From an uncultured bacterium (GTDB lineage Bacteria > Patescibacteriota > Gracilibacteria > Absconditabacterales > Absconditicoccaceae), in the NCBI GenBank assembly GCA_947168725.1, contig CAMVNA010000008.1, forward strand, positions 1 to 48,175: DNA of 48,175 bases, written 5' to 3'. The position numbers were made by a program, and so were the translations under genes. Under the pieces are notes generated by a model. That model was not told where the DNA came from. It did not search any database and saw nothing but the letters and a program-made list of their open reading frames with translations. Position 1 is the first letter of the stretch. The number at the start of each line of letters is the position of its first letter. Below are positions 656 to 9,985 of the stretch, piece by piece.

Positions 656-1339
656 ATGGATAATATAGAAAAATTAAAAGCAGAGGCAGATGAAATCAAA
701 AAATCATTAAATGCATTAAAAGATAATGTTTCAATTTCTGAAGATGAGAAAAAAAATCAAGCTGAATCATTAAAAAACCGGGCAGAAATTGTTGAACAAA
801 AAGTGAAAGATGAGATTAACGTATTAAATGGCAAAACAGATGCAGAGTCAAAGAAAAAAAAAGAAGAAGCAGAAGCTCTTTTGGACAGTTTCACAGATAT
901 TATGAATTTATACACCTCTATTATTAATTCCAGCAATAATACATCAACTCAGACAAAGCAGGCTGAAACAGAGAACAAAAATATTTTTTCAAGAGCAGGA
1001 GAATGGATATGAGATCAGTGGTCAAAAGCAGGAAATTGGGTATGAGAACAACGAAATTCCATATGGGATACAAAAAAGCGAAAAGGAGAGTGACGAAAGA
1101 ACTGATTTCGTTTAGCATGATTTGCATTAACTGGAATATGAGGGGCCGCTTTAATATGTAAATGAGCAAAAAAAATGCGGGATTGGACATTTTGAGGTGA
1201 TAAAGAAGATGACTCTACAGTAGAAAATGACAATTCAAGTGAAGAAAAACAAGATGAAGATAAAGGAGAGAAAGAATCTTTATTAGAACGTTGATTTGAT
1301 GTTCTTTTGAGATTTTTAGATAAAAAATCTAAAGAATAA
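656..1339 (+). CDS. Unrecognised coiled-coil protein with a single hydrophobic segment
   Basis: 227 residues once TGA is read as Gly; I do not recognise a family. Residues 1-75 are a strongly charged heptad-like coiled coil. Residues about 112-140 are rich in Trp and Gly (EWIGDQWS, WDTKKRKG). Residues about 151-172 form one short hydrophobic, Gly-rich segment (FALTGIGGAALI) followed by Lys, and the tail is acidic. There is no signal peptide, so the protein probably inserts by this internal segment or binds a membrane peripherally. The same order of coiled coil, Trp-rich stretch, Gly-rich hydrophobic segment and acidic tail opens the 1170-residue protein at 1488, with many identical residues, so the two are tandem paralogues. 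It has its own promoter. Confidence 0.8.
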
Positions 1340-1422
1340 TATATTATTCAAATATTGATAAATAATATATTTTAACAGTTATTCTACGAAAATTATTCAA
1401 TAGAAAAAAAGTCCGATTTTTT

Positions 1423-1451
1423 TTGCATTTTTTTATGTTTTAACATATAAT
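1423..1451 (+). promoter_or_regulatory. Promoter of the 1488 gene (TTGCAT / TATAAT)
   Basis: TTGCAT at 1423-1428, a 17-base spacer that begins with a T-run, and TATAAT at 1446-1451. Hexamers, spacing and T-tract match the promoter at 590, which suggests the promoter was duplicated together with the paralogous N-terminal module. Confidence 0.72.
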
Positions 1452-1487
1452 AATAAGTAATTTATTTTAACTTTTAACAAAAACGTT

Positions 1488-4400
1488 ATGACAAAAATCG
1501 AACAATTAGAAAGTAAGACATCACAAATCAAAAGTGATTTGGATAGTTTAAAAAGTGATGTTAATCTTTCAGAAGAACAAAAAAGAGAAAAAGCTCAGGA
1601 AATTTTTAATAATGCAGAAACAGAAACAATCAAAAGAGATGTTGAACAAAAGATCAACGAATTAGAATCTCAAACATGAGAAGATTCTCAAAAAGAAATA
1701 GAAAGGGCTAAGACTTTATTAAAGAATTTAGATGAAATAACGACATTATATAACGATATAATGTGAGAAGAAATAAGGAATCAAGATCTAAATCAAAACA
1801 ATACAAATCAAATAGAGGATAAATATCAAACAACGAATACTCCAACTTCTGAAGTTCAGAATGAAGACAAATCAATTTTATGAACGATTGGAAACTGGTT
1901 CTGAAGTGCAAAAGAATGGATATGAAACCAATGGTCAGATATATGGAATACAGATAAACGAAAAGAAGATTGACTGAAGAATTGATTACGTACAGCATGA
2001 TTTGCAGTAACATGAGTATGAGCTGTAGCTCTTTTATGGAAATGAGCTAAAAAAACTTGGAATTGGTTGTTTTGAAGTGATGATGAAGAAGAGGAAGAAT
2101 CAGATAAGAAATCTGAAAAGAAAAGATGATTTTTAAGTAAAGCATGGAGCGTTATAAAATGGACAGCTGTCGGTGTATGATGAGCTTTTTGAATAAATCG
2201 ATTAGGTAAAAAATTGTGACGACGAGGTACAGAACCGAATGCTACATCATCAGCTGAAGATCAAGTTAAGGCTTCAGAGAAATTAAAAGAAGAAGATCCT
2301 GAAAAGTTTGAGAAATATCATGAACTATGAGAAAATATTGATAGTCAGTATAATCAATTAATGGGGAAAGAAATATCAGCATGACGATGAGGAGTAAGTA
2401 TAGCAGATTGATATAAAAAATATTGTGATAGTTCAAAATTATCCCTTGAAGACTTCAAAGCAACAGTACCTATGTGTGTAGATAACCAATTTTCATCCGT
2501 ATGAAACATGTTATCAGAAGCAGGATATTATGCATACTTAAGATCAAAAAATTTTAAAGAATTAAAGGATGCTCTTCTAAAAATGATAGGTGATTGATCT
2601 GATAAATTAATTTGATCAATATTTCCATTTTTTGGATGTTTAAAGTCATTTGAAAGATATAAAGATAAAGATTTCTTAGAAGGTATTAAAACATGGTTAG
2701 ACGATTGAGCTCCTACTGAAAGATGTGAAGAACTGCAACTATTTTTTAGACAATATGCCAAAGTTCTAAGTTATGCACAAGATAAGCGTTTCGCATTAAT
2801 AGAAAAAATAGCAAAAAGAAAATTAGATGCAATGAATGCAGCATGAGTTGATACATCAAAATATGCAACTATCAACGATGCTATTAATGATGAAGAATGG
2901 TTTGAAGAAAATATTAAATCAGATAGTGATTACATAAATTTCATGGAATGAAAATTAACGGGAGCAATAGACGTAATGAAAAAAGAATCTTTATTCGATG
3001 ATAAATTATCGGAATGAGTAGAAGAAATTAAAACAACAGTCGATTCTTATAGGGAAGATGTATTAAACGAACATGATTGAAAAGATGCTTTATGAAGACT
3101 AAAAGAGAATAAAAACGCACTAAATGGAAACAATTATAGTGAATGAATGGAAGTTATAGATAAGGTTTGTAAAGATGTTGACGAAAGTTTCGAAAAAGAC
3201 TGGACATACATGTACTTTTCATTTGCTCATACTTTAACAAATTCTGATGAGAAAAATATTCAAGAATTTCTTGAAAATTCGTGATTAAAAGCAGCAAAAA
3301 ATGAGCTAAAATCAAAATTATTGGAGTTTAAAACAAAATTTAAGAATAAAAGCATTACAGCAGACGAAGTAGAAGGATATTCCGACTTAGTAAACAGTTA
3401 TTTTGCAATGAAAAAGGAGATAATGGTTGCAGCTAAAGCAATACAGACAATGAAATCTGAAGATCCAAGTATAGTGAATAGAGCATTAAGTACATGAGCA
3501 GCAATCTTACATGATCTTTGGGCACAATGAAAAAAAGCATATGAATCTACAAAAAAATGAGATTTGTTCGAAGCGTGGTTATATTCAACATTTCCTCTGA
3601 TAACACTTGGATGAGTTACGAAGTTAGTATGAAAAAATAATAAACTAGCCAATAAACTTTGAAATTGTCTCTTAAAGGTCAATGCAATTGGTGCAATTCC
3701 ATGAGCAGCACAATGAGCATACAAATTATGGGGTAATGTTTTACGTAGAACAAGCCATATTAACTGATTATCGGACTGGATGTTAGTACACTGAAGATAT
3801 AATATTGAACATTGAGATGAGTTACTATTTCAAGATGTTTTAGAGTGAAGAATTTCTTGAACTAAAGCAGAAAATGTTATTAAAAAATGAAGATGGGAGA
3901 AGAAACGAAGTAAGGCTAAGAAAGTAAATTCTCTTGAAGAATTATTAAAAACAGTTTGATGATTAGATTCCTCTACTAATGGTAGAGTGTTAACAGATTT
4001 ATTTAAAACAAAAGTCCAAATTTGAGGAAAGGAAGTCGAAATATCCTTCGTGAAAAATGAAGAGATTAGAAAAATAATCTATTGAGTTCCAACATGAACA
4101 ACTTGAAAAATGAAATCAGTTTTTAATTGATACTACAGAAGAATATACGGAGATTTTTCTAAGATAGAATGAAACGCAAAACATCTATGATTTTGAGAAT
4201 TGTTTTGATGGACAGATTGAGGAGTATCAAAAATTGAAAATCTATCCGAAAATCAGCTTATATTCCTTAAAAGAATTGTAGAAGACTGAAATTTTACAGA
4301 TCCAACAAAACAGTTGAAGAATCTTTTAGATAATATAGATAAAATAGACTTAAATGGAATAACAGAGGATAATTTAATTAAAGTTATTGAAGAAATATGA

Positions 4401-5000
4401 AGCAATGCTACAGATTTAGAAGATGTTGCAAAAATACAAAATAAAGTAAACAAATTTAAGGGAGTTGATAATATTCCACAGCAACGTCTTAAACAACCTA
4501 TATTTTCTGAAATTGATAACACAAAGTGAGTACTTCAAAACGAACTGAATAAAACTTCAAATGCAGCAAAACGTCAACAGATACAGAAACAGATTAATCA
4601 ACTTGAAGATTTTAAAAATGAAATGTGAAAAATGCCAGACGCTGAATTTAAAAAGATGGATAGTTTATTAAGTTGTTTTGAATTAAATTGAACAAGAAAG
4701 AATTTAAATTGAATTATAACAGATGTAACTAAGTTGAAAAAAATAATTGATACGGGTTCTCATTTAACAGTAGGCGAAAATTGAGTTACTAAATCGATAG
4801 ATGATATAATAAAAAATCTTGATGCAGATTGATTAAGAAAAGCCATAAAGTTCAATAGTTGAATAGCAGATGAATTGGAGGATGTTGCAAAAATATTTGA
4901 ACATATAAAAGTAAAAAACATGAAAAATGTACTTTGAAATGCTGATGATGTTTTGAGGTGACTCAAGTTTTTGGTAAAAACTATAGCACAAGTATCATAA
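1488..5000 (+). CDS. Large unrecognised coiled-coil/membrane protein (1170 aa), paralogous N-terminus with the 656 gene
   Basis: The frame runs 3.5 kb from ATG 1488 to TAA 4998 with dozens of TGA codons. Residues 1-80 are a coiled coil. Residues about 130-190 repeat the module of the 656 protein: WIGNQWSDIWNTDKRK, a Gly-rich hydrophobic segment at about 164-187, KGAKKTWNWLFG, and an acidic run. A second hydrophobic segment lies at about 219-240 and two more near 698-711 and 730-752. The rest is helical, charged and without a motif I know. No signal peptide is visible. The downstream 1448-residue gene starts 28 bases later, so the two are probably one operon. A very large, helical, membrane-touching product suggests a structural or surface role, but this is inference only. 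Confidence 0.85.
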
Positions 5001-5028
5001 AAAATTTTTACCCTTAAAAAAATAAAAA

Positions 5029-8000
5029 ATGCCAGAAACTACAGAAGTATTAAAACAGGAAATTTCAGAAGCTTATTTAAAAAATTTCAAAAAAGAGTTG
5101 GGATGGCTAAAATCATTAACACTATTACCAATTGAAAAAAAAATCAAAAATATATTAGTATGAAGGATAAACCTTCCTAGTAAATTTGATGAAATTAAAG
5201 AATTTTGATGGCGAAGAAATATAATTAATTTTTTTTCACCATCAACGGGAGCTAGTATTTACAAATTTATTAAAGAGAAAAGTAGCGAAATTGAAAAAAG
5301 AAAAACAGCAAGCGAACTACTAGAATTAAAGAATAGCATAATATTAGAGGGACAAACAGGTACAGAAACGCAACCAGAGAATAGTACGGAAACGCAACCA
5401 GAGAGTAGTACGGAAACGCAACCAGAGAGTAGTACGGAAACGCAACCAGAGAATAGTACGGAAACACAACCAGAGAGTAGTACGGAAACACAACCAGAGA
5501 ATAGTACGGAAACGCAACCAGAGAGTAGTACGGAAACGCAACCAGAGAGTAGTACGGAAACGCAACCAGAGAATAGTACGGAAACACAACCAGAGAATAG
5601 TACAGAAACACAACCAGAGAATAGTACGGAAACACAACCAGATAAAGAATCTTCATCTATATCGATTTGAACAAGATTTGCACTTTATGGATCTGCATGA
5701 GTTTATTGATTATGAAAAATATCAAATAATATAGACCGTACATTAATTAAAGACTCATTAGATGCATGAAAAATTAGAGAAACAATAAATTGAGCTATCG
5801 CACAGATGAAGCATCAAAAAGATGTATTAGGAAAACGTTTGACTAAATCTCAAATTAAGACAATAGATAAGCATATAAAAAAAATGGAAGAGTGACTGCA
5901 ACTTCCTGATTCTGAATTGTCTGAAATTCTAAAAGAACGAAATAAAGTATGAAAAAAAATTCCATGAAAGTTGTTGGAATCATCATGATTGAGTGTAAAA
6001 GAAATCAACATAATACAAGATTTAGCATGAGAATTGCATGGTAAAAGTATAACAGAAATAAAATCTATTCTCAGTAAAAATTGAATTAATAATGTATGAG
6101 AAGAGTTACTTCTAACTATAAAACAGGCGAAGACTGTTGATGAAATTAAGAGTATAGCAAAAGTCTTGAGACATTGATCAAAGCTAAACAGAATTATACA
6201 GACCATGTGTTGAGCCATGCTTGTTGATGTAGCTTTTTTGTGACTTGATGTACGAATGTTTATTGAACAGAGAAAAGAAGCCGAATTGATAGCAAAAGTA
6301 AATAAGATTAGATCTAATAATAAATATCTTCAAGCGTATACACAATTATGAATATGAATATCAAGTGTTGTTCTTGAGGCAGTATGGACTATATGTGCAT
6401 GTGCATCATCATGATCAGTATGAGGCCCCTATTGAGTCTTAATATGATTAGTAATATGAGTGGCTACAACAGTTACAAGTATATGAGTGGATGCTTATTA
6501 TTTTGATGTTGTAGATTTTTATACACAAAATAGAGATGATTTTTTAAGGCAGAAAAAAAGCAGGATAACTGAAGCAATTTTGCAATGATTACACAATGAA
6601 AAAAAATGAAATACATCAACTAATGAAATAATTTGAAGTTTGTGAGTTGATTCTTGAAAGAGAAAAGATTCAACAGAAGCGGCGTTACGATCTTTAATGT
6701 TTTTAGATGAGCTTGATAGTGGAGAATTTAGAAATTATGCTCCATTCCATGAATATTTAGGTGAGTGAATAACAAAAGAAGATTATTTAAAAAAAGTAAC
6801 AAAATGATTATCTGGAGAGGAAGCCAAAGAGGTGAGGGCAAATTTTGAAGAATACTGGACAAAAATGAATAATAAAATAGAAATAAGAATGAAATATCTA
6901 GAAGAAATACTTAAAAAAGATGATGTTATAAATAGTTTAAAAACGTGAAATTGAATACAAACTATAAATGAGTTATGTTTAGAATCGAGAATTTATGCAC
7001 AAATATGACAAGAAAAACGACAGTGAGATAAGTCGAGGGAATCATACAAATTTAATTTAAACAATTATAAAAAAGATTTTTTTAAAGATTTTTCTCCAGA
7101 AAAAATTACAAAACTAGAAAACTTAAAAAAAACCGAGCCAACATTGTTTCAGGAAATGATATCATCATCAGGTTATGAAAGCTTACTGGATGAGGATGAA
7201 AATGATCCTAACTACTCAGAGAATATTAAGCTAATACAAAAATACAAAGAACGAATTGAATTAACACAAATTAATGCAGACAAAATATGATTATCTATAG
7301 AAGACACAAATAGAAATATGAGATTTATCGAATCTTTAGTAAAATCTGATTTCGACTTAAACTGAATTAGTATTTTTGAATGATATAGCGATGAAGAAGT
7401 TATTAATTTAATAAACTCAAAAGCCGAGAGAAGATGAGCATGTATGGAAGTTTCTGATGATGTTTGGCAAAATGTTTTATATAGATTAGCAAAAGAATTA
7501 TATAATTATGATTGAGAAAACTCAAAAAAATGAATTATGTCATTTTTCGATGAATGAAATGATTGAGTGCACGGGATTTATTACGGTAACAAGTGGAAAA
7601 TTAATGCAGATCGAGCCAAGGATTCAGCAGTAGGAAAAGATTGAATGGACAAAATATTTTCATCAGAAGATGAGGTAACAAAATATGTAAATGATTTTAT
7701 TAAAAATAACTTTAGCACAGTATTTTGAGTTATAGATACTGCAACAGAGTCTATTGATGATGACTTGGAAGATGAAGTTAAAACAGTATTTAGGAAGATA
7801 CTCACACAAGAATTGATGCGAAGGACTAAAAACAATCAAGAAAAAGTAAAAAATGAGATAATAGATTTTGTAAAAAAATATAGTAATTGAAACTATTTAG
7901 AACTTCCATATTATTTGGTATTAAAAGCAAGAAGAGCATGACTTTGAAATTTAGAGAGACAATTTATTAAATGCGAATGAGGTAGTCTTTCTAAAAGTAT

Positions 8001-9375
8001 AAATAGTAAAATAGTGGTCCTTAACTTACCAACAGAAATATCAAATAACCCTTTATGAGCAGAGGTAAATTACATTACAAAAGCACGTGAATCCTACACT
8101 GATGAGGAGAAAGTATATATCAGTATGGTTGAAGATGCTAGAGACAAATTAACAGATTTGTTTGCAGCCCAGTGAGGAGTTTGAGTTATTAAACAACATG
8201 AGTCTGACCTTGATCTTCCACGAGAAGTAAAATGATTATTTAGTGACAAGTGTAAAGAATGGGATGAATTTAAGGAAAGATTGTTATTGTATTCACCAGA
8301 CGTTGTTTCAGGTATGTTGGAAGAATATAATCAATATACAGAATATTTTGAAAACTTATATAGATGAATATTACTTGCTTTAACCACATATAAAGTGTCA
8401 AATGATATTGATACATATGGATTATTTCAACAAGCAGAATGATTTTGAAATTTAAATTATTTTTGAGAAAATTGAGAAATAAAGACAGATCTAGATATAG
8501 ACTTCTTTAAGAATACTGAAATAAAGTCGTTTTATAACAGTCAAATTAAAAGTCAAAAGGTTAAATTTTTAACATATGAATGAAATGAAAAAGAGGCGAC
8601 AATAGAAGAACTTCGAAAATCACAAGAAGAGCAAGAAAAACAAATAGCAAAAAGGGCAAGTAATTTAATAATCATGACTATTGCAGAGCAATGAAGGATT
8701 AATAGAGGATCTTCATGAGAAATTACATGAATATGTATTTGAGATAATCGAAAAGATTCATATACAAGGTGAGTAAAAGAGCTTAAAAACGAAACAGAGT
8801 CATTAATTTCAAATAGATTAAAAAATATAAAATGAAGGCTCTTAATAGATAAAACTAAAATCAAAACAAAGAAACAAGAAGTTAGAGCGCTAACAAAAAA
8901 AGAGTCAAAAACATCAGAAGAAATGGTAGATTTACAGAAAGAAATTGAGAATACAGCTAAGGATATAGAATGGCAAGATAAAAGATGAGATATAAAATAT
9001 GATCCAGAAAAAAAGACATTAAAAAGTCGATCACAATCAGTTAAGATTGATCTAGTAGAAAAGTGAAAATATAAAATTAAAGGCCTCGATATTGAATTTA
9101 CAGATCTCAAGGAAATGCTTTGGGTTGCTAATTTTAGGAATCGAGCCGTAAAAACTTATCCAAACGAAGTGATTGAATATGATTGGGATTTGGCAAATAC
9201 AAAATGATCACGAAGAAACACTTTGGTTGTCGATAGGTCAGTATTTGAAAGTGATACAATGTTGATTCCTAGATGAGCCCTTGAAGAGTATTATCCTGCA
9301 TGTAAGGATGATAATGTAGTCAAAAAATTAGCTAAACGGTTAAATTCAGAGGTTTGATATCCTAAGAAATCCTAA
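5029..9375 (+). CDS. Giant unrecognised protein (1448 aa) with TETQPE repeats and membrane segments
   Basis: Starts at ATG 5029, 28 bases after the previous gene, and ends at TAA 9373. Residues 1-105 are mixed helical. Residues 112-204 are twelve eight-residue repeats of the type TETQPE(N/S)S, a Thr/Pro/Glu-rich linker. Residues about 385-410 and 440-495 hold two or three hydrophobic, Gly-rich segments (GVLIGLVIGVATTVTSIG). The C-terminal 950 residues are charged and helical, with a coiled coil around 1180-1320. I recognise no enzymatic motif. Layout (linker, membrane hairpin, long helical region) resembles the 1488 protein. After the TAA the same frame stays open for 39 more codons to a TAG at 9493, so the end may be longer in relatives. 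Confidence 0.85.
5362..5643 (+). repeat. Twelve tandem 24-bp repeats inside the giant gene
   Basis: The 24-base unit encodes T-E-T-Q-P-E-(N or S)-S and is repeated twelve times without interruption and in frame; the last copy ends in P-D. Copies differ almost only at the third base of one Thr codon (ACG/ACA) and at the Asn/Ser codon (AAT/AGT). Such uniformity points to recent expansion by slippage or unequal exchange, so copy number may vary between strains and may be affected by assembly. The six-residue core is unbroken in all copies. Confidence 0.95.
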
Positions 9376-9595: not shown

Positions 9596-9985
9596 ATGAA
9601 AAAAATAGCATTTTTATTGGTAGCATTATTATTCACTATCCTATTGGGGTGTGAAACAAACCATAACTTTATGGACGTAGATAATTCAAATGCAAAAGAT
9701 GACTTAAAAAATATGATTTGAAGCTGAAATTTACCAAAAATTGATACAAAAAATATTGTACCAGATAGCCTATCTTGAAAGCGAAATGAAGCAAAATGAT
9801 ACGCAAATAAATATTATGAAGATACATTGGAAGGATATGTCGATGTGGCTAAAGACTGACTTTCATGAGCTAAAGAAAATCTGAAATGATATTATAATAG
9901 TTGAGTAGATCAGCTTAATTGAATTATTACAGATAGTATAAGTTGAATAATTTCATGAGAATTAAATAAGATTAAGGTGAAATAA
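9596..9985 (+). CDS. Small predicted lipoprotein
   Basis: 129 residues. The N-terminus MKK, a hydrophobic stretch and the lipobox LLGC (Cys about residue 20) form a type II signal peptide, so the mature protein should be lipid-anchored to the outer face of the membrane. The rest is polar, with many Asn/Asp/Lys and Gly encoded by TGA, and contains a weakly repetitive stretch (YYEDTLEGYVDVAKDGLSGA). No family recognised. It lies 21 bases upstream of the flippase gene and the two may be co-transcribed, but a functional link is not shown by the sequence. Confidence 0.78.

Follow-up and report, generated by a model that had tools for sequence, protein, structure and literature searches.

A modular set of candidate wall-attacking proteins around a giant protein pair in code-25 Gracilibacteria

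The window analysed here is a stretch of 48,175 nucleotides that makes up one entire contig (CAMVNA010000008.1 of assembly GCA_947168725.1; contig C8 of the genome under study, G000) of an uncultured bacterium of the order Absconditabacterales, read with TGA as glycine. Near its start lies a cluster of three plus-strand genes encoding the proteins P0001, P0002 and P0003. We propose, with a probability of roughly one in two, that code-25 (Gracilibacteria/SR1) epibionts possess a modular, polymorphic set of proteins that attack cell walls, and that this cluster is its constant part. The part of this proposal that we hold with most confidence is that the cluster very probably belongs to a modular wall-enzyme system, in which the same N-terminal modules stand before the giants of the window and before varied cell wall enzymes of relatives.

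P0001 (656–1339, 227 aa) consists of a single module, A, made up of a coiled coil, a W/G-rich amphipathic stretch, a marginal Gly-rich hydrophobic segment and an acidic tail. P0002 (1488–5000, 1170 aa) combines module A with a domain B and a variable C-terminal part, and P0003 (5029–9375, 1448 aa), whose gene starts after a gap of 28 bp, consists of a module D, a repeat linker, a domain E and a module F. The 5′ edge of the contig falls inside a flanking sigma-factor gene. Translation with table 11 breaks up all three open reading frames (ORFs); under table 25, P0002 contains 69 in-frame TGA codons and P0003 contains 72. The first-pass annotation of this DNA had described three giant membrane proteins. 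P0002 and P0003 are indeed giant, but P0001 is a single-module protein and no giant, and the membrane character of all three is weak: P0003 alone has three moderate hydrophobic segments, at residues 389–482, whereas P0001 and P0002 have one marginal segment each. The N-terminal module said to be common to P0001 and P0002 was recovered by alignment of P0001 with P0002 residues 1–213 (E about 1e-29, 38% identity in the alignment), and three further copies of it are encoded elsewhere in the genome under study.

Modules A and D on cell wall enzymes

Sequence comparison presents modules A and D as alternative N-terminal tags. Among the 49 genomes of the order, most of which are fragmented assemblies, the module A profile has matches in 26 and the module D profile in 21, so that the module common to P0001 and P0002, which had been put forward for a search across related genomes, is now traced in about half of the order. 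No protein matches both profiles. Almost every match is located at the N terminus or close to it, the exceptions being L053_4, in which module A is displaced by ~250 residues, and L127_2, a chance match.

When domain-E giants and truncated copies are excluded, the module D profile retrieves 14 complete small proteins, and in all 14 a cell wall peptidase was found above the Pfam curated cut-off. Seven carry NlpC/P60 (L048_11, L052_9, L054_6, L093_14, L099_12, L104_5 and L131_1, with L052_9 barely over the cut-off at 23.1 vs 23 bits), four carry M23 (L094_9, L096_12, L120_1 and L123_2) and three carry VanY (L046_4, L125_1 and L126_1). Proteins with a module-D-like front recognized by eye, below the profile threshold, include the YkuD_2 protein L051_3 and a second NlpC/P60 protein, L048_12. 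NlpC/P60 proteins without module D also exist in the order, one of them in the genome under study.

Module A precedes a VanX-type dipeptidase (L106_7; Peptidase_M15/VanX, E 4e-29), a YkuD_2 (L,D-transpeptidase) protein (L056_13; E 5e-24) and a set of proteins for which a lysozyme-like assignment is suggestive only, their best PDB profile matches being four lysozymes/endolysins with weak scores (E 0.05–0.16). Several A-tagged proteins have no supported domain assignment, including L041_14 and L041_15 of the genome under study. C39-like, glucosaminidase-like and GH25-like readings of L041_14, L041_15 and L057_0 had been made by eye; they found no support in PDB and NCBIfam searches and were rejected.

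Promoter and module A behave as one DNA cassette that is exchanged among genes whose 3′ halves are unrelated. In genome G005, a YkuD_2 gene and a lysozyme-like gene share an 806-bp stretch of 97.1% identity that opens 81 bp before the start codon and runs through module A to its end; their 3′ remainders are unrelated. The P0002 gene and that of L041_15 are 82.8% identical at the DNA level over 651 bp, from ~37 bp upstream into module A, and then diverge. Given these exchange stretches and the placement of module F described below, the parts of the system mix and match.

The L041 locus is a second module-A cluster of the genome under study (contig C4, 38000–48000), with L041_11, L041_14 and L041_15 encoded downstream of the genes for an S-layer-homology protein and for a class V aminotransferase; several relatives have a homologue of this aminotransferase encoded beside their module-A genes. 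At two other loci (L058, 11744–12745, and L042, 182–997), the catalytic-looking C-terminal part of A-tagged proteins was seen behind other N-terminal parts, so those C-terminal domains would also move to a third type of front end.

The giant pair

P0002 and P0003 form a constant pair that is fused in several relatives. Among the 59 genomes searched (that of the window included), P0002 has matches in 12 and P0003 in 14. The two genes adjoin in several genomes, and in L049, L051, L053 and L054 they are replaced by one encoding a single fused protein, which retains module A, domain B and domain E and has lost module D; because the fusion keeps A and drops D, the two modules are best read as alternative front ends. 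Module A of P0002 (1488–2240, residues 1–251) is common to P0001 and to module-A proteins encoded on another contig. Domain B (2256–3884, residues 257–799) was found in the same genomes as domain E, as its neighbour or fused to it.

P0003 starts with module D (5029–5397, residues 1–123), the N-terminal tag also present on wall peptidases of relatives, followed by a linker (5360–5642) encoded by a 24-bp tandem repeat of 11.8 copies and reading TETQPENS/ESS. The repeats reported for this protein by the first-pass annotation are therefore present, but they are not a conserved feature, as relatives fill the linker differently. Domain E (5764–7989, residues 246–987) is the core of the giant. It includes the three moderate hydrophobic segments (6193–6474) and, at 7456–7830 (about residues 810–934), its most widely conserved part, with invariant G, Y, N and D. 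A class-wide search detected domain E in 24 of the 49 genomes of the order; the cluster is thus present in relatives, and its absence from all of them, named in the annotation as a refutation, was not observed. The most conserved part of the domain was also detected in other families of the class, where 16 genomes have it in long open frames, and no TGA recoding is needed for the matches outside the order. A search of 380 genomes spread evenly over the phylum gave three domain-E matches, all inside the class. A profile scan of genome contigs with P0003 alone retrieved no match, and the same scan with a four-sequence alignment retrieved four loci, one labelled candidate division SR1. In one outgroup giant, an SLT transglycosylase domain comes after domain E.

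Module F (8962–9345, P0003 residues 1312–1439) is present as one copy at the end of D + E giants and as two copies in separate module-A proteins, of which L051_5 and L099_9 (module A plus two F) are encoded next to fused giants lacking F. Several outgroup giants (L152–L165) have a C-terminal LNNWY-like motif in common that resembles the YLN-L end of module F; at the threshold used, the profile of this module gave no match to these giants.

Searches of P0001–P0003 against Pfam, PHROGs and NCBIfam gave sub-threshold matches only, mostly driven by coiled coils or composition, with nothing at a curated cut-off or a convincing E-value. This agrees with the earlier statement that the proteins belong to no recognizable family, and no strong match to a phage-tail or ribosome-bound family, which the annotation had named as a refutation, was obtained. 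A Prok-E2_B (Pfam) match of P0003 was put aside at 17.4 bits against a cut-off of 25.4. PDB profile searches with domain E and module A returned weak or coiled-coil matches and named no family. No adhesin domain, signal peptide, sortase or S-layer domain was found in P0001–P0003, nor was any LXG/WXG100 domain, typical of type VII secretion system substrates, matched in Pfam up to E 1. Known trafficking domains had no above-cut-off match in Pfam or NCBIfam, and XVIPCD had none in the same scans, which included no XVIPCD profile. The AlphaFold model of P0003 residues 250–1448 was unusable (predicted local distance difference test, pLDDT, 54). The model of residues 540–1000 (pLDDT 68, predicted template modelling score 0.62) had no structural relative by Foldseek among PDB and viral models (VIA Z ≤3.5). 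Both predictions rest on five-row alignments and no fold was assigned.

Downstream of the giants, a gene at 9596–9985 encodes a small lipoprotein, P0004 (129 aa, LLGC lipobox), which G003 and G004 retain at the corresponding position, even beside fused giants or extra paralogs. It ends ~20 bp before a flippase-like gene, and may therefore be part of the operon of that gene rather than an immunity protein.

The promoter element and type IV secretion genes

The regions upstream of P0001 (574–618, plus strand) and of the P0002–P0003 pair (1407–1451, plus strand) have AAAAAAGTC-N3-TTTTTTTTGCATTTTTTTATG followed by TATAAT in common. Before P0001 the element reads AAAAGTCATGTTTTTTTTGCATTTTTT (574–600, 0 mismatches to the motif) with TATAAT ending at 618, and before the pair it reads AAAAGTCCGATTTTTTTTGCATTTTTT (1407–1433) with TATAAT ending at 1451. 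The two regions align with a score of 61, against a maximum of 35 among 1985 random pairs of window segments, which upholds the near-identity of the two promoters noticed on first reading.

Scanned on both strands with up to one mismatch, the element AAAAGTNNNNTTTTTTTTGNATTTTTT, also written AAAAGTC...TTTTTTTTGCATTTTTT, has 10–15 sites per genome in G000, G003, G004 and G005, and the reversed control has 0. Many sites approximate AAAAGTC-N12-GACTTTTTT, an inverted repeat that lies across the -35 region and might be the binding site of a regulator. Of the module-A genes of these four genomes, about 16 in number, 9 have the element upstream (Fisher test about 1e-14, entered as 9/17 with an estimated 4400 genes assumed and with the genes being related). 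Besides module-A genes, it precedes a gene whose product matches T4SS-DNA_transf (23.5 bits, cut-off 20.1), an operon and a further single gene of pilin-like type, and genes for PKD surface proteins and unknown long proteins. The coupling-protein gene (in G000 at 124301 of contig C1) has it directly upstream in all four genomes. In the genome under study, two T4SS_pilin-like genes behind the element directly precede ftsK (L228, 7269–11112, contig C5). We take the common promoter as a link between the cluster and type IV secretion, and not as proof of secretion.

Proposed role, alternatives and known systems

The small tagged enzymes that were examined have no obvious N-terminal signal peptide or strong transmembrane segment, and for this reason modules A and D may act as export or docking signals. 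The likeliest export route would be the type IV secretion system (T4SS) encoded by these bacteria, since the promoter element of the cluster also stands before the coupling-protein gene of this system and before two pilin-like genes, and we suggest this route tentatively. Tagged proteins would be delivered to the contact zone, where the enzymes would open the wall of the host; the giants, whose helices are weakly hydrophobic, would serve the enzymes as a scaffold or become inserted into the envelope. P0001 could be a stand-alone tag serving as an adaptor, or a stripped remnant. We regard export onto the host by a non-Sec route as about an even chance. In favour of attack on the host are the variation of the set from one relative to the next and the way in which related epibionts are known to live, two of them being cultivated predators (PMC11452946, PMC8080830). 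PMC12857230, citing Wang et al. 2023, reports that a cultured patescibacterial epibiont cannot grow on its host without the T4SS. The fullest version of the proposal, in which A and D are N-terminal T4SS export signals and the giants with their swappable hydrolases are the first identified T4SS effector set of code-25 Patescibacteria, used to breach hosts, is in our judgement doubtful.

Several results weigh against the proposal. Neither P0002 nor P0003 yielded a catalytic domain, the genome under study yielded no D-tagged enzyme, and the assignments of its three other A-tagged proteins are weak or made by eye only. All 49 genomes of the order have the coupling-protein gene and 24 have the giants, so the T4SS does not depend on the giants. 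The promoter element may be a general envelope promoter, given the PKD surface-protein and other genes behind it, and its motif was scanned in a genus to which the D-tagged enzymes do not belong. No immunity genes were identified, no systematic search having been made for them, and the conservation statistics treat related sequences as independent. The C-terminal ending [LMVIA]A is present in 14 of 18 D-tagged enzymes (14 detected by profile and 4 by eye), compared with 11 of 390 other ORFs, and is the one C-terminal trait that was seen to be common; it may act as a signal for export or for degradation. A reading of these tails as SsrA degrons was set aside, the tmRNA (transfer-messenger RNA) tag of the genome under study, read by eye, having no LAA end; this tmRNA (L193, 1490–1900, contig C3) was found by the Rfam model and not by ARAGORN.

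The main rival, which we rate as unlikely though deserving of weight, is that the system remodels the cell's own envelope, modules A and D anchoring wall enzymes to a giant scaffold at the cell's own membrane for growth, division, pilus passage or VirB1-like T4SS assembly. VanX, VanY and L,D-transpeptidase activities can serve wall maintenance, the promoter element is common with T4SS pilin and coupling genes, and VirB1 hydrolases have been described as assembly helpers (PMC12102498). Against such a role, close relatives do not have the same number and kind of enzymes, about half of the order lacks the modules, the examined enzymes have no obvious signal peptide, and the exchange of cassettes and the pairing of tags with unrelated catalytic domains are more like an effector arsenal than housekeeping. 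The same lack of an obvious signal peptide, the lysozyme-like domain set and the [LMVIA]A ends, which would fit tight proteolytic control, could point to cytosolic hydrolases and weakly hydrophobic giants working as endolysin and holin to lyse some cells or free daughters. We give this little credence: the giants are much bigger than holins, their hydrophobic segments are marginal, no phage relatives were found, and the missing LAA end of the tmRNA tag weakens the degron idea.

As improbable as self-lysis, in our view, is that the giants serve in cell-surface attachment and their wall-enzyme paralogs are secondary. Vampirococcus lugosii, of a related lineage, reportedly has giant membrane proteins whose presumed role is host binding (PMC8080830), and a PKD surface protein has the same promoter motif; yet P0001–P0003 show no adhesin domain, Sec signal or strong membrane anchor, and the complete small module-D partners detected by profile are all wall peptidases. 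Where the first-pass annotation had named surface, attachment or predation structures as candidates, the tags on varied wall hydrolases and the promoter type common with T4SS genes point towards predation, and attachment is left unsupported. A phage-tail remnant or derivative, the giant being a tape-measure-like protein with wall-hydrolase domains, is disfavoured and very improbable. Its length, helical content and Gly-rich hydrophobic stretches, and the SLT domain of the outgroup giant, resemble a tape-measure protein in outline, but there was no convincing PHROGs match, no phage tblastn match and nothing beyond weak Foldseek matches, no tail genes were recognized beside the loci, and the annotated neighbours are housekeeping genes.

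As far as we searched, published work contains no description of this protein family, and we know of no identified effector set for a patescibacterial T4SS. The family offers testable candidates with a common tag for what these bacteria secrete, together with enzymes that can be assayed in a laboratory strain. Giants formerly without annotation gain a function-linked context in 24 of the 49 genomes of the order and, through the conserved subdomain, in 16 genomes of other families.

Among known systems, the giant membrane proteins of V. lugosii (PMC8080830) are likewise very large proteins of a predatory epibiont of the candidate phyla radiation. They have WD40, PKD and similar domains and a membrane location, whereas P0002 and P0003 have no such match, a distinction drawn by description only. 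The VirB1-like hydrolases of monoderm T4SSs (PMC12102498) are comparable in that SLT, NlpC/P60 or CHAP domains are linked to the T4SS in Patescibacteria. The proteins described here differ in bearing A or D tags, and the VirB4-type ATPase of the genome under study is encoded on contig C1, so the window genes are not encoded with virB4 as VirB1-like genes are. Closer in organization are polymorphic toxin systems (PMC3482391), with their constant N-terminal part, variable catalytic C-terminal part and DNA-level exchange at the junction. Here, module A stands before VanX, YkuD_2, lysozyme-like domains, B and F, module D stands before NlpC/P60, M23, VanY and E, and the 97.1% identity in G005 stops at the module junction, as recombination there would produce. 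Points of difference are that P0001–P0003 matched no known trafficking domain in Pfam or NCBIfam, with other transport routes still possible, that no immunity genes were identified, none having been sought systematically, and that the recognized payloads are cell wall enzymes. The X-Tfes, the bacteria-killing T4SS effectors of Xanthomonadales (PMC6536674, PMC11253643), have their common module, XVIPCD, at the C terminus and not at the N terminus as A and D are; the family described here also includes a giant pair without a recognized catalytic domain, and its secretion by a T4SS is putative. In other respects the two sets are alike, both being wall-attacking or probably so, dispersed over the genome and built from one non-catalytic module joined to varied catalytic domains.

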